A stretch of 64,000 nucleotides of DNA, from positions 62,001 through 126,000 of the forward strand of contig NZ_BAOS01000022.1 in assembly GCF_002443295.1 (NCBI RefSeq). Reading direction: 5' to 3'. This DNA comes from Candidatus Scalindua japonica. Lineage in GTDB: Bacteria; Planctomycetota; Brocadiia; Brocadiales; Scalinduaceae. Below the pieces are notes generated by a model. That model made no database searches. It saw only the letters and a list, made by a program, of their open reading frames with translations, and had not been told where the DNA came from. How positions within the stretch are numbered: the first letter of the stretch is position 1; every line of letters begins with the position of its first letter. The translations under genes and the position numbers were made by a program. Shown here piece by piece: positions 25,144 to 35,996 of the stretch.

Positions 25144-25461
25144 TCACGTGAATATATATTCACATGATAAACAATTTTCTTCTATCAGTTTCTGGTGAAA
25201 GGCAACGTTCCTGTTCTCCATTGAGATGTGTAGACCATTGGTAGTTTTTTTACCGATCTCTTCTATTTTGTGGCAGACAGTGCACTTCTCAGATGTACTG
25301 CCAATGAATGGTGTGTGGTATGCAAAACAATCTGTAGCAAGCTCAGCATGAACATCTATGAGTTTTCCTGGTCTGATCATCAGGTGAGGGAAGAATATCG
25401 CCAACAGAATCATGGCAACCAGATTAACAATAACAATTATGGTGACAGTTTTAATTTTCAT
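25144..25461 (-). pseudogene. Truncated multiheme c-type cytochrome
   Basis: A 105-codon frame with an N-terminal TM (TIIVIVNLVAMILLAIFF) and the start of a class III-type multiheme cytochrome. Only one intact heme motif remains, CTVCH near residue 60. An earlier CFAYH looks like a CxxCH that has lost its second Cys, and the last one reads CLSCE. The frame stops at the point where intact relatives continue with several more hemes. A near-palindrome at 25145-25166 lies at the breakpoint. It overlaps the upstream b-type fragment by four bases, so the two were an operon. Confidence 0.65.
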
Positions 25462-25904
25462 TTCCAATTCCAGAACAGAAAGATACTCAGAATGTGTAAG
25501 ATGCAGAGCACTGCAAAGACCAGTGTGATCGGCAGATGTACCGCACGCCATTTCTTCATCAAATCTAAGGTAGTCGCATCCCAGAAAATCTTCCTTTCGA
25601 TCTCCTCCTCGGATAAACCTAGTTGTGAATAAACCTTCTTCTTTTTTGCCAGGAAACGATGCGAACGATTCAGCAGATATGTGCCAGTCATACCGCTGAT
25701 GACGGTGATTAGCATGGTGATTAACGCCAGCCACGGCAAGATAGTATAGAAGTGGATTCCTGCGTGCACCAGAATCATCAGCGCTCCAATCCAAGTCAGG
25801 ATTTCATGCAGAACGAGAAACGCCTTGGACTTGCCGAAACGGATTAAGCATGCATTGCTGCGATTACTGAAAAAAACTTTTTTTGTTTTGTCTTTTTTGC
25901 CGAT
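25458..25904 (-). pseudogene. 5'-truncated b-type membrane cytochrome fragment
   Basis: The open frame encodes KAFLVLHEILTWIGALMILV, then three TMs with His residues (LVHAGIHFY, WRAVHLPI, CILHILSIFL) in a pattern fitting heme b ligands. Intact relatives have further N-terminal sequence; here the frame starts after a TGA at 25905-25907 with no proper start codon until the Met at 25778. It is coupled to the truncated c-type cytochrome, indicating a decayed membrane electron-transfer module. A shortened functional protein starting at 25778 cannot be excluded. Confidence 0.5.
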
Positions 25905-26093: not shown

Positions 26094-26427
26094 TATGTTG
26101 TTGGGAGAAGGAAACGAGCCAGCGTGCTTTAATCAATAATCAAAAAGGCCGTCCTGCAAATCGATTATATTGATTGTCCGGATTTGATATGTTATTTTTT
26201 ATTTATTCGTTGGTTGTAGATGTTGACGCTTATGATGTATACTTACCACATAAAGCCAATGAAAGGGCGAAATTACTTAAACAATTATCTGGGAAACGAA
26301 GGAGGCTTGAGAGTTCAACCATTTGTAACAGGCAAGCTTAAGATTGGATGGTCTCTGGGACTAATTACTGGCAGCATACAACAACGTAATCTTTTTGCCT
26401 TTTCCCGCACTCCTTTTTTTTGTTATG

Positions 26428-26463
26428 AAGATTGACATAACTTCATTCAGTTATGTCAATCTT
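26428..26463. repeat. 15-bp perfect hairpin, copy 1
   Basis: AAGATTGACATAACT and its exact complement flank a six-base loop, TCATTC. It is preceded by an eight-base T run on the plus strand. A related hairpin at 31174-31226 differs at three stem positions, each compensated on the other arm. It lies downstream of the 161-aa gene on the minus strand, but no T run follows in that direction, so it is not a standard terminator. Confidence 0.6.
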
Positions 26464-26564
26464 ATCGGTATTACTACAGAAGTGTCAGATTAAATATAAA
26501 CTATCACACCTCATTTATTTGGTAAAGTATAATTGAAAATTACCTGACTTCCTTAAACTCTTTT

Positions 26565-27050
26565 TTACCATTTATCTTGTACCTTCTCATTCGCGGCTTC
26601 TTTTACTGTCTTAAGTTTGTCTAAAATCATTTTATTAATAGCATCCCAATTTTCATGGTAAATACAATAATGACACCTCTCTGCATCTTCTTGTGCTTTA
26701 TTTAAATCTTCATATTTCCCACCGAATACTTTAGTAATCCTTGTATCCATATAGTAATTGTAATCAATCTCCTTGTATAAACCTGGAGATTTACTGCTAT
26801 GCATAATTTTTTCTATAAAGTCATAACACTCCATCTCTGATTTAAATGCCCAGAAGTGTGCAATTTTATCAGCCGCCTTCGCATCAAGTGATTGAAGCTC
26901 AATTAATTCATCTAAACATCCCTTGTCACTCATTAGTGAATGGTTGACCTCTGAATATTCCCGATAAAAGCGTGAAAGGCTCGACTCATCGGCAAATAAA
27001 CAGATAGGAAACAAGAATAGAACAAGAAAAATTACAGTAGTATTCTTCAT
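26565..27050 (-). CDS. Secreted protein of unknown function
   Basis: A 161-aa protein with a clear signal peptide (TTVIFLVLFLFPICLFADE). The mature part is mostly helical and charged, with CLDELIELQ, ECYDFIEKIM and RCHYCIYHENW. The CxxC here is not followed by His, so it is not a c-type heme site. No family is recognised. The gene sits between the hairpin block and the 103-aa gene in copy 1 of the duplication but is absent from copy 2, so it was inserted in one copy or lost from the other. A GGAG-type ribosome binding site precedes the ATG. Confidence 0.65.
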   Translation of the reverse strand: MKNTTVIFLVLFLFPICLFADESSLSRFYREYSEVNHSLMSDKGCLDELIELQSLDAKAADKIAHFWAFKSEMECYDFIEKIMHSSKSPGLYKEIDYNYYMDTRITKVFGGKYEDLNKAQEDAERCHYCIYHENWDAINKMILDKLKTVKEAANEKVQDKW

Positions 27051-27161
27051 AATAAATATCTCCTTAATTTCGCTAGAAATTATAAATCTGAAAAGTCTGT
27101 ATTTAAAATTGTTTTCATCTTAGTGTTGCTGTAATTAAGAGACGCATCAGTCCTTTTTATT

Positions 27162-27473
27162 CTAAGTATAAGAGATACTATCATCACCTAATTTTGCTCT
27201 TCCACTTCTAAGACCCGCTCTCTTACCATCCGCATAAAACAGGAACAGATTTCTCTCACGTTGTGCAATATCCAACAATGTTCCAAGACGGTTAATGTCC
27301 ATGTTCAGAATAATCTTTCCGTTAGCGTCTATCTCAGCATCTTTTACGTCAGTCTCATTAGGAAAGAAGCGGATTTCTCCTCTTGCTTTTTGATTATCGT
27401 AAAAATGTATAGAAGTTGAATCTGTACCGTTAGACATAGATGTAGAGTAATCTGTAATCGAATATTCTTTCAT
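27162..27473 (-). CDS. 103-aa conserved hypothetical protein, copy 1
   Basis: A small cytoplasmic protein with no signal or TM, predicted mostly beta (STSIHFYDNQKARGEIRFFP, DANGKIILNMDINRLG, RNLFLFYADGK). The pattern resembles a family of small uncharacterised bacterial proteins with an xRFxxx-DANGxIxLxxxxxRxxxxxD core, but I cannot name it. It is identical to the protein at 31319-31630 except Tyr for Phe at residue 102. It has a strong ribosome binding site (AAAAGGAG) and a sigma-54-type promoter about 60-75 bp upstream. Expression is probably controlled by one of the neighbouring NtrC-type proteins. Confidence 0.75.
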   Translation of the reverse strand: MKEYSITDYSTSMSNGTDSTSIHFYDNQKARGEIRFFPNETDVKDAEIDANGKIILNMDINRLGTLLDIAQRERNLFLFYADGKRAGLRSGRAKLGDDSISYT

Positions 27474-27533
27474 TTTTTTCTCCTTTTAAATGTTTGGTTT
27501 TAAAGTATCAAAATTTAAGTCAATAATACTGTT

Positions 27534-27549
27534 AGCAAAAGGAATGCCA
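27534..27549 (-). promoter_or_regulatory. Sigma-54 (-24/-12) promoter of the 103-aa gene, copy 1
   Basis: On the minus strand this reads TGGCATTCCTTTTGCT. The -24 GG and -12 GC are separated by exactly 10 bases, as in the consensus TGGCAC-N5-TTGCW. The predicted start would lie near 27523, giving a ~50-base leader before the ATG at 27473. The element is conserved in copy 2. Confidence 0.75.
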
Positions 27550-27738
27550 TATTGATATTAATTTTTAACAACACTATTAAGCCAAATATTTATATATACT
27601 TATATACATAAGAAATTAAAAGCCATAGTTTTTTGCAGACCATCAAAAAGAGTGTAAATGACCTGAATCTAAACCCTCAGAATGAAATTGCAGGCGGAAG
27701 TTGTATTTAAGTTTCGTTCTAATATACTGATATGACAA

Positions 27739-27756
27739 TTGACCATAAGTGGCCAA
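27739..27756. promoter_or_regulatory. Candidate activator-binding dyad, copy 1
   Basis: TTGACCA-N4-TGGCCAA is a 7-bp inverted repeat with one mismatch, about 190 bp upstream of the -24/-12 promoter. That is the usual distance for a sigma-54 activator site. A further half-site, GGTCA, follows at 27770-27774. The copy-2 version is a perfect palindrome, supporting function. Confidence 0.5.
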
Positions 27757-27772
27757 GGTATGATAATTGTGG

Positions 27773-29149
27773 TCAGCAAGAAAGGTTTAATTTTATCATC
27801 TTGTTTCGGAGTGTAGTTCTGGGCATGCCAAGTATTTCAGCCATATGAACCTGGTTGCCATCAGCTTTTTTAAAAGCCCATTTAATTAATTTTTTTTCAA
27901 ATTCTGTAACTTCTTCTTGAAAATCAACCTTCTCCTTCTCTTCCAGATCCATTTGTATTTTGCCCGACACTCCTTCAGATTTCTTTAAGGATTCTGGCAA
28001 ACACTGCACTGTTATTTTATTGTTTGAAGCAAAAACTAATGCATGCTCCACAACATTTTCTAATTCTCTCACATTACCAGGCCAGCCATACTCCATCAAT
28101 AAATCCAGTGTATCCTGAGAAATATCTGGTCTGGTAATCTGTAAGCGCTCACTATATTTTCTTATAAAAAAATTTACCAATAGTGGTATATCATCTATTC
28201 TTTCTCTCAAAGAAGGCAAATTTATAGTAACAACATTCATTCTATAGTAGAGGTCTTCCCTGAATTTTTCCTGTTTTACGAGGTTTGCCAGGTCCACTTT
28301 TGTAGCACAAATTAAGCGGACATTGACCGAAGTAGTATCCTCACCACCTACTCTTTCATATTCTCTTTCCTGAAGGACCCTGAGTAGCTTTACCTGCATC
28401 TCTATAGGAATGTCGTCTACATCATCAAGAAATATAGAGCCGCCATCAGAAAGCTCAAATTTACCTTTTTTAGTTCTTATTGCCCCTGTAAATGCGCCTT
28501 TTTCATGACCAAATAACTCACTTTCCAATATCTCTTTATTAAGTGCAGCACAGCTTAATTTTATAAAAGGCCCATCTTTCCTACTGCTGTTGTAATGGAT
28601 AGCTCCGGCAATAAGTTCCTTACCAGTTCCACTTTCGCCTTGAATCAAGACTGTAGTTTCTCTAGCAGCAATAATTTGTATCGTATCTAATATCTTCATC
28701 ATTGGCTTACTCTTACCAATTATATTATTTTGTCCGTATAGTTCTTGAATTTCACAACGTAGTCTTGCTACCTCTGATGTTGCTTCTTTATAATTTAGAG
28801 ATCTTTCCATCCTCATAATCAGCTCATCTGTAGAGAATGGCTTGCAGATATAATCAAATGCCCCGTTCTTCATAGCTGTTACAGCGCTTTCTACAGTTCC
28901 ATAAGCAGTCATTATTATGACAATAGTTTCAAGAGAAATATTTTTTATTTCCTTTAAGAATTCAATCCCATCTAAGCCAGGTAATCTTAGATCAGACACA
29001 ACTATATCAAACTCTTCGCCTCTCATATATTTAAGCGCCTCACCAGCAGATTTAAGTGTTTTCACACAGAATCCTTCTTTTGTAAGTTGTGCCTCCAACG
29101 ACACCCTCATCAGTTTTTCATCATCAACAATTAGAATCTTACTTCTCAT
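27773..29149 (-). CDS. NtrC-family sigma-54 response regulator
   Basis: A 458-aa three-domain activator. The receiver (about 1-120) has an acidic pair (VDDEK) and phospho-Asp in VVSDLRLPG. The AAA+ domain (about 140-375) has Walker A GESGTGKELIAG and the sigma-54-contacting GAFTGA loop. The C-terminal Fis-type helix-turn-helix (about 415-455) ends RTTLRNKMIKLNL. It is coupled to its cognate kinase at 29146-30636 by a 4-bp overlap. Its 3' end is duplicated at 31925-31979. It lies directly upstream of the sigma-54 promoter of the 103-aa gene, a likely target. Confidence 0.95.
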   Translation of the reverse strand: MRSKILIVDDEKLMRVSLEAQLTKEGFCVKTLKSAGEALKYMRGEEFDIVVSDLRLPGLDGIEFLKEIKNISLETIVIIMTAYGTVESAVTAMKNGAFDYICKPFSTDELIMRMERSLNYKEATSEVARLRCEIQELYGQNNIIGKSKPMMKILDTIQIIAARETTVLIQGESGTGKELIAGAIHYNSSRKDGPFIKLSCAALNKEILESELFGHEKGAFTGAIRTKKGKFELSDGGSIFLDDVDDIPIEMQVKLLRVLQEREYERVGGEDTTSVNVRLICATKVDLANLVKQEKFREDLYYRMNVVTINLPSLRERIDDIPLLVNFFIRKYSERLQITRPDISQDTLDLLMEYGWPGNVRELENVVEHALVFASNNKITVQCLPESLKKSEGVSGKIQMDLEEKEKVDFQEEVTEFEKKLIKWAFKKADGNQVHMAEILGMPRTTLRNKMIKLNLSC

Positions 29150-30636
29150 AACATATCCTTGTTATTTCTCAATGGCAGACACACAGTAAAGGTCGTTTCT
29201 TCTGCTGCTGTGGACATTTCCACCCTGATTTCTCCACCATGATCTTCTATAATCCTTTTACTTATGGCAAGCCCTATACCAATACCCTTTCCTTTGTCTT
29301 TTGTTGTAAAGAAAGGATCAAATATTTTATTCATTTCTTCTTTATTGATCCCAGGCCCTGTGTCAGATATTGAAAACTGCACACACGAATCATGCTCATT
29401 ACATAGCCTGGTTTCAATCATTAATTTGCCGCCGTCAGGCATGCTGTCAATGGCATTTGACAATAGATTTATTACCACCTGTGAAATGCTGTCCCGGTCA
29501 ACATATATTCCAGGCAATCTTAATGCTAGTTTTTTTTGTATGGATATCTTTACGTTTTCCAACCTATGCATCATGAAAACAAGTGACGATTCTATTATTT
29601 CGTTTAAATCCTTATCTGATTTTTTTAAAACATGTGGTGTAGTAAAAGTGGTAAGACGTTTAACGATCACTTCTATTCTATCAAGACCTTCTTGTATCAA
29701 TTCTATAAATTCCTTAGTCTGTTGAATATTATCCGGTTCTCTCTCAATCATCCTTGTAAAATTCTGAAGCCCTCCCAATGGATTATTAATTTCATGGGCA
29801 ACCTCAGCAGCTAATTCTCCAATTGCAGCAAAACGCTCTGAACGAACAAGTTGTTGTTCCAATTTCTTTAGTTCAGTTATATCCCTGAGTATTCCTTCAA
29901 GACGAACAATTTCACCTTTTTCGTTTTTAATCACATTAGCGGTACGTTCAGCGTAAAAAGACTCTCCATCTTTCTTTTTACACAATGACTCAAAGTTTCT
30001 CCAGATTCCATCTTTTTCAAGCTTTTCGACAAGACGTCTTCTGTCATCAGGATTCATATAAATATTTTTTACCTTTGCACCGATTACCTCTTCAGGTGAT
30101 TTATAACCAAGCATTTCTGCACCTGCTTTATTAATCCATGTAAACTTTCCTTCGATTCCGGGTTCACATTGATATATGCCTTCTTTTAGTGAATTTAATA
30201 ATTGCCTTTTATGTTCTTCTGATTCCAGCAACTTTTCTTCCCGTTTTTTTCGTTCAGAAATATCGCTACATATATACTGTATTAATTTTTTATTGCCGTA
30301 TCCTATCACACTGGCACTTATGCTTGTAGGTGTTATGCTTCCATCCATCTTCCTGTGATTAACATCGTATAGAATGCCAGAACCTTCTTCTTTAACTTGT
30401 CTCCATAACTCCTCTAATCTGTTTTCATCCTGAACAGGATACAAATCCCATATCTTAAGTTTACAGAGTTCTGCTTTTGGGTAACCAGATATCGTTTCTG
30501 CTTTTTTATTAGAGTCGATTATTTGTGCTGTGTTTATGTTCAAAGAAAAGATCGCATCGTTTGCAAGATTAATTGATTCACGATATTTTTCCTCGGATTC
30601 TTTCAGTTTGGCCAGTTCTTTCATATATTTATTCAT
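29146..30636 (-). CDS. PAS-PAS sensor histidine kinase, soluble
   Basis: A 496-aa cytoplasmic kinase without TM segments. It has two PAS domains (about 15-130 and 140-255), then a HisKA domain with phospho-acceptor His in EVAHEINNPLGG and a HATPase (NLLSNAIDS, DTGPGINKEE, GKGIGIGLAISK). It pairs with the NtrC-type regulator at 27773-29149. The first Met is followed by a second at residue 5. The PAS ligand is unknown; a heme, flavin or small molecule is possible. NtrB-like kinases of this kind commonly sense intracellular redox or nitrogen state. Confidence 0.94.
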   Translation of the reverse strand: MNKYMKELAKLKESEEKYRESINLANDAIFSLNINTAQIIDSNKKAETISGYPKAELCKLKIWDLYPVQDENRLEELWRQVKEEGSGILYDVNHRKMDGSITPTSISASVIGYGNKKLIQYICSDISERKKREEKLLESEEHKRQLLNSLKEGIYQCEPGIEGKFTWINKAGAEMLGYKSPEEVIGAKVKNIYMNPDDRRRLVEKLEKDGIWRNFESLCKKKDGESFYAERTANVIKNEKGEIVRLEGILRDITELKKLEQQLVRSERFAAIGELAAEVAHEINNPLGGLQNFTRMIEREPDNIQQTKEFIELIQEGLDRIEVIVKRLTTFTTPHVLKKSDKDLNEIIESSLVFMMHRLENVKISIQKKLALRLPGIYVDRDSISQVVINLLSNAIDSMPDGGKLMIETRLCNEHDSCVQFSISDTGPGINKEEMNKIFDPFFTTKDKGKGIGIGLAISKRIIEDHGGEIRVEMSTAAEETTFTVCLPLRNNKDML

Positions 30637-31173
30637 TTTACCAGTAAATTGTGAGTTTACATTAACACATAGAAAAAGGCGCGCTTAAAATACAGGAATT
30701 GAATGTAGTAAAAGCTGTTGATTTTAAATCAGTTTATTACAGAGCATTATCGTATAATGGTATTGTATGATTTAAAGTATGGCAATAAAATAATATGTAC
30801 TATATATATTGACTCAACAGGATTTTTGTTTCAAATGTCGAAATTTACAAATACACAAATGGCTACTCTTCCATTGAGAACCTCTGCAGAGTCTGACATG
30901 AAAATCTTATGGGGGATTGAGAATAATCAGGCGGGGATGGTCAATAAATAGTTATGCTGCATGGCAAGGCGGAATCCTGGATTGCTGCATCTAGATTATA
31001 GAGTTGTTTCAAACGAAACTATCGAACTAAAACAAATAGAGAAACAATTGCGCTTGCTCATAATCATAATAAAGATATCTTCATTGTTATCACCTATTAA
31101 ACCTTTCTATACTGAAAAATTAATCTAACTTCGTAATGTTGTTTGTCTTTTCCACGCTCTTTTTTTTGTTCTG
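30637..31173. other. Intergenic region without a convincing gene
   Basis: An AT-rich stretch upstream of the soluble kinase. A 77-codon frame at 30718-30951 has no ribosome binding site and no recognisable product. No clear promoter for the kinase was found. The right end (from about 31146) starts a block homologous to 26395-26520 that carries the covarying hairpin. Confidence 0.4.
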
Positions 31174-31226
31174 ATGATGAACATAACTTCATTCAGGGTG
31201 AACCTTCATTCAGTTATGTTCATCAT
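31174..31226. repeat. 15-bp perfect hairpin, copy 2
   Basis: ATGATGAACATAACT and its exact complement flank a 23-base loop that contains an internal TCATTC repeat. The flanks are homologous to those of the hairpin at 26428-26463 (T run before, CTACAGAAGTG after). Three stem pairs differ between copies, with both arms changed to keep pairing. Confidence 0.6.
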
Positions 31227-31318
31227 TCATCAATACTTCTACAGAAGTGCCAGATAAACATAAACTACCTCATTTTCGTGTAGTTGTTATTAAGAGACGC
31301 ATCAGTCCTTTTTTTATT

Positions 31319-31630
31319 CTAAGTAAAAGAGATACTATCATCACCTAATTTTGCTCTTCCACTTCTAAGACCCGCTCTCTTACCATCCGCATAAAACAGG
31401 AACAGATTTCTCTCACGTTGTGCAATATCCAACAATGTTCCAAGACGGTTAATGTCCATGTTCAGAATAATCTTTCCGTTAGCGTCTATCTCAGCATCTT
31501 TTACGTCAGTCTCATTAGGAAAGAAGCGGATTTCTCCTCTTGCTTTTTGATTATCGTAAAAATGTATAGAAGTTGAATCTGTACCGTTAGACATAGATGT
31601 AGAGTAATCTGTAATCGAATATTCTTTCAT
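31319..31630 (-). CDS. 103-aa conserved hypothetical protein, copy 2
   Basis: Identical to the protein at 27162-27473 except Phe for Tyr at residue 102. The same ribosome binding site and sigma-54 promoter precede it. Strong conservation of both copies at the protein and promoter level suggests a recent duplication, gene conversion or selection for dosage. It sits downstream of the second kinase/activator pair (32018-35877), as copy 1 sits downstream of the first. Function is unknown. Confidence 0.75.
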   Translation of the reverse strand: MKEYSITDYSTSMSNGTDSTSIHFYDNQKARGEIRFFPNETDVKDAEIDANGKIILNMDINRLGTLLDIAQRERNLFLFYADGKRAGLRSGRAKLGDDSISFT

Positions 31631-31690
31631 TTTTTTCTCCTTTTAAATGTTTGGTTTTAAAGTATCAAAATTTAAGTCAATAATACTGTT

Positions 31691-31706
31691 CGCAAAAGGA
31701 ATGCCA
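31691..31706 (-). promoter_or_regulatory. Sigma-54 (-24/-12) promoter of the 103-aa gene, copy 2
   Basis: The minus strand reads TGGCATTCCTTTTGCG, with GG and GC 10 bases apart. It differs from copy 1 at one base outside the invariant dinucleotides. The position relative to the 103-aa gene is the same as in copy 1. Confidence 0.75.
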
Positions 31707-31895
31707 TATTGATATTAATTTTTAACAACACTATTAAGCCAAATATTTATATATACTTATATACATAAGAAATTAAAAGCCATAGTTTTTTGCAGACCAT
31801 CAAAAAGAGTGTAAATGACCTGAATCTAGACCCTCAGAATGAAATTGCAGGCGGAAGTTGTATTTAAGTTTCGTTCTAATATACTGATATGACAA

Positions 31896-31913
31896 TTGAC
31901 CATAATTGGTCAA
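31896..31913. promoter_or_regulatory. Candidate activator-binding dyad, copy 2
   Basis: TTGACCA-TAAT-TGGTCAA is a perfect 7-bp palindrome about 190 bp upstream of the copy-2 -24/-12 promoter, followed by another ATGGTCA half-site. This is the expected arrangement for an NtrC-type upstream activating sequence. Confidence 0.55.
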
Positions 31914-32017
31914 GGCATGATAATTATGGTCAGCAAGAAAAGTTTAATTTTATCATCTTGTTTCGGAATGTAGTTCTGGAATGATCCGGATGATTGATTA
32001 TGGAAATGGTTAAACCG

Positions 32018-33415
32018 CTATACTGTTTGTCCGGATTTAATATGATATTTCTTGAGTATACGTTGTAAATATTGCCGTTCTATTCCTATCTCCTTTGCCG
32101 TGTTTGTTACATTGCCGTTATTTTTGTTCAAGACATTCATTACATACTTAGTGTTAAATGCGTCAAGCGACTTTTTGCGTGCTTCCTTATAGGGCAGAGA
32201 AAACAATTCATCCCAGAACATGTCGTTTCCACCTGCTTTTTTTACAAATGGCAAAATAATGTGTAGAGGAATTATAGCTTCATTAGTAAGGGTAATCGCA
32301 CGCTCTATTACATTTTCAAGTTCACGAATGTTTCCTGGCCAGTGGTACTGATAAAATCCATCTTCCACATCAGGAGAAATTCCTTTTATGCGCTTATTTT
32401 CTCGTTCATTGTACTTTTCAATAAAATATTTTGTAAGTAATGGAATATCTTCTTTTCTGTCTCTTAAGGGCGGCATTGTTATATTGATAACATTCAAGCG
32501 ATAATATAAATCTTCACGGAAATCTTTTTCCTGTACTTTTTTGATCAGGTTCTGGTTTGTAGCCGCAATAATGCGAACATCTACATGCCGTGCAAGAGTA
32601 TCTCCCAGAGGAATAAATTCTCCTTCCTGTAGTACGCGTAATATTTTTGCCTGAACTGATACGGGAATATCTCCAATCTCATCCATAAAGAGAGTACCGC
32701 CATCCGCTTCCTCAAAAAGCCCCATTTTCGTTTGAATAGCACCGGTAAAAGCCCCTTTTTTGTGGCCAAACAATTCACTTTCCAGTAGATTTTCAGACAA
32801 TGTGGCGCAATTGATTACCACAAATTTTTTATTTTTCCTGTTACCGGTAAAATGAATGGCCCTTGCCACCAGATCCTTCCCCGTTCCACTCTCTCCGGTA
32901 ATTAAAATCGTGGCAGCACTGTGTGCCACTCTGGAAACCATATCTAATACCTTCTGGATTTCTCTGGAATTTCCTATGATAGTTTTGAGTCCGAAGGCTT
33001 TTTCCAACTCTGAATGAAGGTATTTATTTTCCTCAATGATATTGTATTGCGCAATCATACGGTCTACATTGAGAATGATTTCATCTAAACTAAATGGTTT
33101 TGTGATGTAATTAAATGCTCCTCGCTTCATGGCCTCTACCGCCGTTTCGATTCCGCCATAAGCGGTCATTATTAAAACGGAGGTATTATATTGTTCTTTC
33201 ACCTTCTGAAGTAATTCAAGCCCATCAATACCTCCAGGAAGTTTCATGTCAAGAATGATAACAGAAAACTCCTGATTTTTGAGCACCTCCAGTGCATCAT
33301 CTCCTGAGCACGCGGTTTTAACATAAAATCCGCGTTCCGTTAATGCGTTATTCAAAACCGTTCTGTATCCGACCTCATCATCTACAACCAGTATATTGGT
33401 TCCATTTTTACTCAT
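32018..33415 (-). CDS. NtrC-family sigma-54 response regulator
   Basis: A 465-aa activator with receiver (phospho-Asp in VIILDMKLPG), AAA+ domain (GESGTGKDLVARA, GAFTGA, DEIGDIP) and a C-terminal Fis-type DNA-binding helix (NTAKEIGIERQYLQRILKKY). It overlaps the 821-aa membrane kinase by four bases, so the two form a cognate pair. It lies directly upstream of copy 2 of the sigma-54 module. Either this protein or the one at 27773-29149 could control both copies, since dyads and promoters are conserved. Confidence 0.95.
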   Translation of the reverse strand: MSKNGTNILVVDDEVGYRTVLNNALTERGFYVKTACSGDDALEVLKNQEFSVIILDMKLPGGIDGLELLQKVKEQYNTSVLIMTAYGGIETAVEAMKRGAFNYITKPFSLDEIILNVDRMIAQYNIIEENKYLHSELEKAFGLKTIIGNSREIQKVLDMVSRVAHSAATILITGESGTGKDLVARAIHFTGNRKNKKFVVINCATLSENLLESELFGHKKGAFTGAIQTKMGLFEEADGGTLFMDEIGDIPVSVQAKILRVLQEGEFIPLGDTLARHVDVRIIAATNQNLIKKVQEKDFREDLYYRLNVINITMPPLRDRKEDIPLLTKYFIEKYNERENKRIKGISPDVEDGFYQYHWPGNIRELENVIERAITLTNEAIIPLHIILPFVKKAGGNDMFWDELFSLPYKEARKKSLDAFNTKYVMNVLNKNNGNVTNTAKEIGIERQYLQRILKKYHIKSGQTV

Positions 33416-35877
33416 GACTCATTTTTTATCCTGACTGGTAATAATACTCTGAATGTTGTTCCTTTCCCTACCTCACTCTCCACCTCAATATTGCCTTCAT
33501 GCATTTTTACAATTCCATAACTGATACTCAAGCCTAGCCCTGTTCCCTTGCCATCTTTTCTCGCGGTAAAAAATGGATCAAATATTTTATTAAAATCATA
33601 TTTATTAATACCTTTGCCTGTATCGCTGATAAATATTTCTACTAATTTCTTGTCAGCGTGAAATTCCGTGCCCATAGTCAGTGCTCCTTTTCTATAAACA
33701 TCTCTATGCCCTAAATCTCCAGCCGCTTCTTGCATAGCAAAAACAGCGTTATTTGCAATGTTAATTATAACCTGCTCTATCTGATGGCTATCCATCATAC
33801 AATCAGGAATGTTGGAACCGGGTTTTCTGATAACATTAATTTTTTCTTTATGGTACTGTTTTTCTACAATATTCAGTACGTTATCTATCAGATTATTTAC
33901 ATTTGACAATGCCATTTTTGGTTCTTTCTGCCTTGAGAAATCCAGCAGACCACTTATTAACTCTTTGCACCTGATGGACTCCCTGACAGATCCCTCCAGA
34001 TATTCATGCAAACAAGATCTGTTCTTGCTGATAATAGTATACGTTTCTCCCAATCCTGCATGGTATTTTCCTAAATCGCCCCTAATGTGCATCAATTCTT
34101 TTTTCAAAAGACCCACCCCCTGTCTCGTTTCTACTTCACTATCCATGTTCGCGATAATCCTATCCAAATGTTGTGTATATTCTGAAATGGAAAGAGAGCT
34201 GATATCCTTAAAACCGCTGGTAATCTTTTCAAAAATTTTCAAACTTTCAGTGCTATAAAGATAAATTACTCCTATAGGGTTATTAATTTCATGAGCAATT
34301 CCGGCGATCAATTGGCCTATAGAGGCCAACCTGTCAGACTGCACAAGTTTCTGTTCCAGTTTTCTCAGTTCGGTGATATCACTGGCAATCCCCAGTATGC
34401 TTATCAATACACCTTCCTTGTTTTTTATAGGAGAAGTGCTGAGTAACACATTTCTGATATTTTTCTGTTTATCGAGAATTTCAACTTCGAATCTACGGGG
34501 AAAATCGCTATGAATAACGCGATTATCATTCTTCCGCTTATTATCAAAAAAGACGGATATCAATGGAGTGCCTATTAAATCTTCTTCCGTGTAACCCCAG
34601 TCTTTAATTTTTGGATTCACAAAAGTAAAATTTCCTCGTGCATCCAGTGTAAAAATCAATTCATTAGCGAACCGTAAAACACTTTCTAAATATTCCTTTC
34701 TCTCTTCAAGATCACTCTTCAACCCGAGCAGTTTTTCACGAGAATCTTTGATATCACAGGTCATTTGATTAAACGATCCGGTAAGTTCTCCCAATTCATC
34801 CTTGAGACGTGTTTCTACCCGAAAGTTCAGATCACCTCCTGCAACCTTTTTCATACCCTTAACCAGCATGAGAATAGGATTAATAATACCTCTTGATACA
34901 AATAACGAAACAAATATAACACCAACAATACATATGCCAACCAATGTAATTACCCGGTTTTTAAAGGTATAAATGGTGGAATAAGCCTCTGATTCGTCTG
35001 TTTCAACCACTAAAACCCAGTCCATTTTCTTCAAATACACCGCTGCGCCAATAACGTTTACACCACGGTAATCCCTGTAGACCCCTACAAATTCTTTACC
35101 CTGTGAATGAACAGAAACTATAGGTTCTGATTGAACCATTTGTCTTAAGATGGCGTTATTCATAAATCTTGATTCGGTAATCAAGAAACCGCCTTTATTC
35201 ACAATATACACTTCACTGGTAAGCCCTCTTCTGTGAAAAGCACCCATATCAGCTTTTGTAATTATCTTTTTACCCACAGTAATTTCATTTAACTTATCGG
35301 CATTAAAACGGATTACAAGGACTCCCAACAATTTTTCTTCACTTTTTTTCAAAATCGGCGCCGCAAAGGCTATCGAATACTCACCAGTTTTATTGTCTCT
35401 GTAGACATCCTTCACATAAGTATCCTCTTTGCCGTATTTAAAATAATCTTCATCAACTTCATTCATCCCAATACTGTTTTTATTGCTGGAGGCAACCACA
35501 ATACCTGAAGGGTTTAAAATAAAAGTCTCATAGAATCCCGGGTTCAGATTTGTTTTATATACCATATAGTCGTTAAATTCCTTGACAGCCAGCTTGTCGC
35601 CGGGATTGTTATTTAATTTCTCCAGGTTCATTCGAATAAACTCATCAGACGCAAAAAATTGAGATGAATATTCCCCCGAATCGATGATAGTGAGTATGTG
35701 GTTCTTGATTCCTCCGGCAATGAATGACTGTTCTTTGAAGAGCTCGTTCTTGATGGTCTCCTGTGCATATTGATAGGTAAGAATCGCAACAACAATGATG
35801 GGCAAGATAGATAATAATAAAAACCAGCAAAATAATTTCCTGCCTATACCACTAAAGAGATTTACACTTTTTATCAT
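33412..35877 (-). CDS. Membrane sensor histidine kinase (dCache-HAMP-PAS-HK)
   Basis: An 821-aa kinase with TM1 (about 15-35), a periplasmic dCache-type sensor (about 40-300), TM2 (near 310-330), HAMP, one PAS (about 405-515), HisKA with His in GIAHEINNPIG, an extended insertion, and HATPase (NIANNAVFAM, DTGKGINKYD, GKGTGLGLSISYG). The ATG at 35877 is preferred to the TTG five codons upstream. The periplasmic module has YRGVNVIGAAVYLKKMDW, closely echoed in the kinases at 37805 and 48414. It pairs with the activator at 32018. An extracellular small-molecule ligand is likely. Confidence 0.94.
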   Translation of the reverse strand: MIKSVNLFSGIGRKLFCWFLLLSILPIIVVAILTYQYAQETIKNELFKEQSFIAGGIKNHILTIIDSGEYSSQFFASDEFIRMNLEKLNNNPGDKLAVKEFNDYMVYKTNLNPGFYETFILNPSGIVVASSNKNSIGMNEVDEDYFKYGKEDTYVKDVYRDNKTGEYSIAFAAPILKKSEEKLLGVLVIRFNADKLNEITVGKKIITKADMGAFHRRGLTSEVYIVNKGGFLITESRFMNNAILRQMVQSEPIVSVHSQGKEFVGVYRDYRGVNVIGAAVYLKKMDWVLVVETDESEAYSTIYTFKNRVITLVGICIVGVIFVSLFVSRGIINPILMLVKGMKKVAGGDLNFRVETRLKDELGELTGSFNQMTCDIKDSREKLLGLKSDLEERKEYLESVLRFANELIFTLDARGNFTFVNPKIKDWGYTEEDLIGTPLISVFFDNKRKNDNRVIHSDFPRRFEVEILDKQKNIRNVLLSTSPIKNKEGVLISILGIASDITELRKLEQKLVQSDRLASIGQLIAGIAHEINNPIGVIYLYSTESLKIFEKITSGFKDISSLSISEYTQHLDRIIANMDSEVETRQGVGLLKKELMHIRGDLGKYHAGLGETYTIISKNRSCLHEYLEGSVRESIRCKELISGLLDFSRQKEPKMALSNVNNLIDNVLNIVEKQYHKEKINVIRKPGSNIPDCMMDSHQIEQVIINIANNAVFAMQEAAGDLGHRDVYRKGALTMGTEFHADKKLVEIFISDTGKGINKYDFNKIFDPFFTARKDGKGTGLGLSISYGIVKMHEGNIEVESEVGKGTTFRVLLPVRIKNES

Positions 35878-35996
35878 AATAAGCCCACACAATTTATAAA
35901 TATCTGGTAGAGTTATAATTTATACACAAGTAATAAACTTAAATAAACCTCTATTTTTTACTAAAGTTTAAATATCATTATATTCAGTTTGAAACT

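Follow-up and report, generated by a model that had tools for sequence, protein, structure and literature searches.

The window analysed here is a 64-kb stretch (positions 62001-126000 of contig C22) of the genome of Candidatus Scalindua japonica (4.81 Mb, 47 contigs). It carries two kinase-regulator pairs on the minus strand, each followed by a copy of the gene for a 103-aa protein. Its relevant features, as obtained from the ORF list, domain searches and a motif scan, are the following.

29146-30636, minus strand: HK1, a PAS-PAS-HisKA-HATPase kinase (domain search)
27773-29149, minus strand: RR1, with a receiver, an AAA+ sigma-54 activation domain and a Fis-type HTH (domain search)
27770-27775, minus strand: additional TGACCA half-site, which shares bases with the RR1 stop codon and is 20 bp away from the first half-site of the dyad
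27739-27756: upstream dyad of copy 1, TTGGCCA-N4-TGGTCAA, with one mismatch (GACC to GGCC)
27657-27664, minus strand: AGGTCATT, a block resembling a half-site that lies between dyad and promoter and in which GTC.TT is invariant
27534-27549, minus strand: predicted -24/-12 (sigma-54) promoter element of copy 1, TGGCATTCCTTTTGCT, with exact GG-N10-GC and TGGCA/TTGC-like boxes
27162-27473, minus strand: gene of the 103-aa protein, copy 1 (ORF list; no Pfam or NCBIfam match)
27115-27822, minus strand: copy 1 of the duplicated segment, which takes in the 3' end of RR1
33412-35892, minus strand: HK2, a dCache-HAMP-PAS kinase adjoining RR2 (domain search)
32018-33415, minus strand: RR2, a second sigma-54 activator, with copy 2 behind it (domain search)
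31896-31913: upstream dyad of copy 2, a perfect TTGACCA-N4-TGGTCAA (motif scan)
31691-31706, minus strand: predicted -24/-12 element of copy 2, TGGCATTCCTTTTGCG, inside the duplicated segment
31319-31630, minus strand: gene of the 103-aa protein, copy 2 (one base differs, Y to F)
31270-31979, minus strand: duplicated segment, copy 2, with a remnant of the RR1 3' end between RR2 and the dyad

RR1 and its adjoining kinase show the domain composition of an AtoSC-like pair, with a receiver, an AAA+ domain and an HTH next to a kinase. AtoC is also the best-scoring NCBIfam model for RR1, at 478.1 bits, which lies under its cut-off of 714 bits (NF008469). RR2 is 42.5% identical to RR1 and has a different HTH. 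It had been claimed that the 103-aa gene lies next to nitrogen-sensing genes. As written, this does not hold: both regulators score under the 558.6-bit cut-off of the NtrC model TIGR01818 (RR1 444.6, RR2 421.2), and HK1 contains no transmembrane stretch, as judged by the absence of any 19-residue hydrophobic stretch. A nitrogen link for the locus does appear, but by a different route.

The exact GG-N10-GC element described in the earlier note was found on the minus strand at 27534-27549. With its TGGCA/TTGC-like boxes, and in a genome that encodes RpoN (PF04552, 202 bits), it has the features by which a sigma-54 promoter is recognised. The copy 2 element ends in TTGCG, as compared to TTGCT in copy 1. 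The dyad that had been placed about 190 bp upstream, perfect in copy 2, was likewise recovered: it lies 190 bp upstream of the -24 box and has one mismatch in copy 1. Allowing up to one mismatch, this dyad occurs five times in the 4.8-Mb genome, two of the occurrences being these copies, and not at all as the control pattern. In the 3-kb loci around the other three near-dyads (L008-L010) no further RR1 target was recognised; the single strict promoter-like match lies in L010, about 850 bp off and inside a long ORF.

Both the -24/-12 element and the dyad might be chance matches devoid of function, and in the 64-kb window the loose motif TGGCAYN5TTGCW with at most one mismatch is indeed found at chance level (6 matches vs. 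4.69 expected, no enrichment). Genome-wide, however, TGGCAYN5TTGC gives 41 sites as compared to 11 for the reversed-pattern control. Eleven of the 41 were left unclassified with respect to ORFs of at least 100 aa, and among the remaining 30 as many as 23 lie outside such ORFs, vs. 1 of 11 control sites. This excess and intergenic bias, along with the conservation at near-equal distance behind RR1 in all seven other genomes that carry it, leave almost no room for a chance match, and we consider the promoter very probably real.

The architecture is present in both copies, as had been claimed, but this agreement loses its value as support for function, because both are parts of one duplicated segment and thus give no independent evidence of selection. 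The two copies, of about 710 bp, are one base apart in their coding parts, and this comparison identifies them as a recent segmental duplication. Since the last RR1 codons are found out of place behind RR2, copy 2 probably derives from copy 1, on the RR1 side. A stretch resembling the 3' end of RR2 is also present at 26166-26212 (81% vs. 32019-32065), 6 kb away, as a trace of an older rearrangement. Repeated palindromic stretches (families D4, D7 and D13) lie near the copies, at 26413-26493 and 31159-31258, and may have helped the duplication. Translation of 25144-25794 (minus strand) gives what has the appearance of a damaged membrane/haem protein gene, with overlapping frames and imperfect CxxCH motifs.

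The C-terminal part of RR1 has matches in 9 of the 17 genomes of the family, namely S. japonica, seven clear orthologues and a weak match in G294 (36%, E 3e-7), which was not counted as an orthologue, although hzsB/hzsC are nearby on the same contig; the other eight genomes gave no RR1 match. The orthologues in the seven other Scalinduaceae are 75-83% identical to RR1 over 422-457 aa (63-79% in the C-terminal part). Behind every one of them, TGACC at or beside the stop codon is followed by a GACC-N6-GGTC dyad and by GG-N10-GC, which supports the earlier claim of a sigma-54 promoter with an upstream dyad. With the RR1 stop codon as the origin of the count, the -24 box begins at nt 222-229 in the relatives and at nt 227 in copy 1. 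The TGACC of the half-site at 27770-27775 is invariant in copy 1 and the seven relatives, and the base altered in the copy 1 dyad is kept in copy 2 and in all seven.

Column conservation was assessed over a 242-nt region, using S. japonica copy 1 and the seven relatives, with dyad and promoter both named beforehand. Invariant columns were 15 of 34 in dyad plus promoter, as compared to 36 of 208 elsewhere (p = 9e-4). Taken separately, the promoter stands weakly above its surroundings (p = 0.017) and the dyad gave p = 0.011. When two half-site-like blocks chosen post hoc are added, the contrast sharpens to 25 of 46 vs. 26 of 196, but a p-value would be biased by such a choice; the block at 27657-27664 was picked in this way, from the alignment.

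The gene that follows the promoter differs between S. japonica and its relatives. In six of the seven relatives it is a hydrazine synthase gene (hzsB, hzsC or a fused hzsBC), and among the RR1-bearing genomes only S. japonica has the 103-aa gene there. Hydrazine synthase is the hallmark enzyme of anammox. The promoter is followed by a fused hzsBC and then the start of hzsA in G304, by hzsB and hzsC in G295, by two hzsB and one hzsC in G308, and by hzsC in G303; the genes of these four genomes score over the NCBIfam cut-offs for hydrazine synthase (NF052340, NF052341, NF052342). The assemblies of the relatives are mostly fragmented, with several contigs breaking off close to the hzs genes: what follows the promoter in G306 and G305 is the beginning of hzsB or hzsBC, truncated by the contig end and recognised by protein match, and in G309 the contig ends before any gene behind the promoter. 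In G306 (L082 ~7208, plus strand) and G303 (L083 ~1784, minus strand) a small hydrophobic ORF of 19-23 residues, with a ribosome-binding-site-like stretch, lies between promoter and hzs.

Because several RR1-bearing relatives have further hzs matches on other contigs (e.g. G304:C176, G308:C25, G306:C14), the RR1-linked hzs genes look like extra copies outside the canonical cluster. In the C45 cluster of S. japonica, the gene preceding hzsBC has an end that is matched by the leaders of four of the seven relatives, namely G304 (88% over 117 nt), G295, G308 and G305. This points to the hzs cargo, too, having been brought by copying into its place downstream of the RR1 promoter.

In S. japonica, hzsBC at C45 sits with hzsA in a cluster of canonical appearance. 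This cluster has a sigma-54 regulator of its own, which is 39.7% identical to RR1 and has a different HTH. A second hzsBC, at C34, lies behind a multihaem gene, and neither hzsBC is beside RR1. The RR1 unit is separate from the canonical hydrazine-synthase cluster. Control of these hzs copies by RR1 was considered and rejected, as neither the 14 kb of L092 nor the 17 kb of L093 contain a GACC-N6-GGTC dyad. In L092, the canonical cluster, an own GG-N10-GC element, TGGCACGCTATGTGCA, is found upstream of 5983, behind the different sigma-54 regulator. A tblastn search of the 64-kb window at E 1e-3 revealed no hzs remnants.

The 103-aa gene has a much narrower distribution, occurring in 3 of the 17 family genomes, S. 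japonica included, and in 3 of 62 genomes of the order, with two copies in S. japonica, one in G303 and two in G308. Named records with relatives of the gene are those of Ca. Scalindua sediminis and of another planctomycete MAG. The earlier note took the promoter to be dedicated to this protein, which it proposed as a candidate effector in stress or nitrogen responses, and the placement of the element with respect to the ORF, including its distance, agrees with that. Loss of the GG/GC pairs among orthologues, which it had named in advance as an argument against this reading, is nonetheless what we observed for the 103-aa protein, as none of its three orthologues has GG-N10-GC within 400 bp upstream. 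The element stays instead with RR1 and precedes hydrazine-synthase genes in six of the seven relatives. Dedicated control is thus very unlikely, and on the same two grounds, i.e. that the layout follows the RR1 orthologues and is missing at those of the 103-aa protein, we assign the predicted promoter to the RR1 unit and not to the 103-aa protein.

The kinases differ as well. Six relatives have a complete RR1-adjacent kinase on the contig, and these are membrane kinases of 767-785 aa as compared to the 496 aa of HK1, which matches only their C-terminal half and contains that PAS region twice. Since HK1 is devoid of the membrane part, the membrane signal is probably sensed differently in S. japonica than in its relatives.

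Taken together, these observations are best accounted for by a change of cargo at an AtoSC-like sigma-54 unit that drives extra hzs genes in the relatives, followed by a local duplication, and we regard this as the probable history of the locus. According to this explanation, HK1 would phosphorylate RR1. Bound to the TGACC/GGTC half-sites that directly follow its gene, RR1 would then reach across about 190 bp to contact RpoN-RNA polymerase at the -24/-12 element, in much the same way as AtoC at atoDAEB. The unit of the relatives would drive hydrazine-synthase genes outside the canonical cluster. In S. japonica it would have lost the hzs cargo and acquired the 103-aa gene, while the kinase lost its membrane part; the order of this exchange, hzs first and the 103-aa gene later, rests on parsimony. 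The piece of about 710 bp comprising the RR1 tail, the sites, the promoter and the gene would then have been copied behind HK2-RR2, where, considering that the HTH of RR2 differs, we infer that RR1 would act on copy 2 too.

The unit could also be decaying, given that the copy 1 dyad has lost an otherwise invariant base and that HK1 is without its membrane part. It would then have become unresponsive after the loss of hzs, with the 103-aa gene expressed weakly or constitutively from another promoter, and the two coding copies are too young to have diverged, as would fit such a remnant. RR1, however, is intact, and its dN/dS of 0.10-0.11 in three comparisons indicates purifying selection, which argues against plain decay; moreover, the -24/-12 element of copy 1 is intact and the dyad of copy 2 is perfect. 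For this reason we judge a decaying remnant to be rather improbable with respect to a cargo change at a working unit.

A bolder extension of the cargo change, which we put forward only tentatively, is that the Scalinduaceae possess, in RR1 with its sites and promoter, a conserved 'docking place' onto which different hzs gene sets would be loaded as cargo in different species and the 103-aa gene in S. japonica, and that the 103-aa protein acts in hydrazine/NO metabolism. If so, this protein would now be under the control that formerly governed an extra hydrazine synthase.

In E. coli, according to the available part of PMC3118216, the AtoSC pair of kinase and response regulator is associated with an inverted-repeat site upstream of the sigma-54-dependent target promoter of atoDAEB. 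As far as described there, the S. japonica unit resembles it in having a kinase, an NtrC-family activator and an inverted repeat upstream of a predicted sigma-54 promoter, and differs from it in the TGACC/GGTC half-site, the cargo and the kinase without membrane part. In Kuenenia, the accessible text of PMC12053348 places the sigma-54 regulator kuste2857 in the canonical hydrazine-synthase cluster; the accompaniment of hydrazine-synthase genes by a sigma-54 regulator gene is a shared trait, whereas the Kuenenia-like cluster of S. japonica (C45, L092) has a regulator different from RR1 and no GACC-N6-GGTC dyad in 14 kb. Extra hzs copies are reported in Scalindua, namely in S. brodae (PMC4290996) and S. 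sediminis (PMC7768721); the portions of these two papers at hand do not describe a two-component unit ahead of such a copy, and words in 'regulat-' are absent from the main text of both. A cis-acting site for the control of anammox hydrazine synthase was not found in the excerpts of the literature available to us, and we found little in print on the subject. With a conserved activator, dyad and promoter ahead of extra hzs genes, experiments on this control would have a defined site to start from. In S. japonica a conserved regulatory element appears to have been put to use for a new gene, twice, and this change of cargo amounts to an experiment of nature in the re-use of a promoter.

For the family of the 103-aa protein, the RR1 promoter context is a first functional lead. 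The protein has no match in Pfam or NCBIfam, and a profile search of the PDB gave a best E of 0.23. With respect to its orthologues the S. japonica protein shows dN of about 0.31-0.37 and dS of about 0.6-1.0, a fairly fast divergence. In a phylum sample of 392 genomes, weak matches (E 3.9e-6 to 0.1) were obtained in 11 further genomes and excluded as orthologues, four of them (G223, G191, G018, G178) being inspected; some of these proteins are alike over most of their length, and a wider, distant family is likely. An origin from a mobile element or phage was rejected, tblastn giving no match in phages or plasmids and none in viral contigs, and PHROGs a best E of only 0.037. The structure model (pLDDT 77.5) shows an OB-like arrangement only, with no significant match in the PDB (best Foldseek E 0.13) and a best VIA-align Z of 4.8 (rmsd 4.1 over 82 residues); one viral structure, from a Pandoravirus, matched at E 1.4e-4, and no function is drawn from the fold.

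About 110 bp behind copy 1 of the 103-aa gene lies an ORF of 161 aa (26565-27050, minus strand) with a signal-peptide-like start, which could be co-transcribed with it; it has no family match over cut-off and no counterpart listed behind copy 2. In G308, one of the 103-aa genes is immediately followed by a gene that is cyanase-like by translation (L050 3078-3530, minus strand), and two cynS genes are reported for S. sediminis in the available part of PMC7768721.
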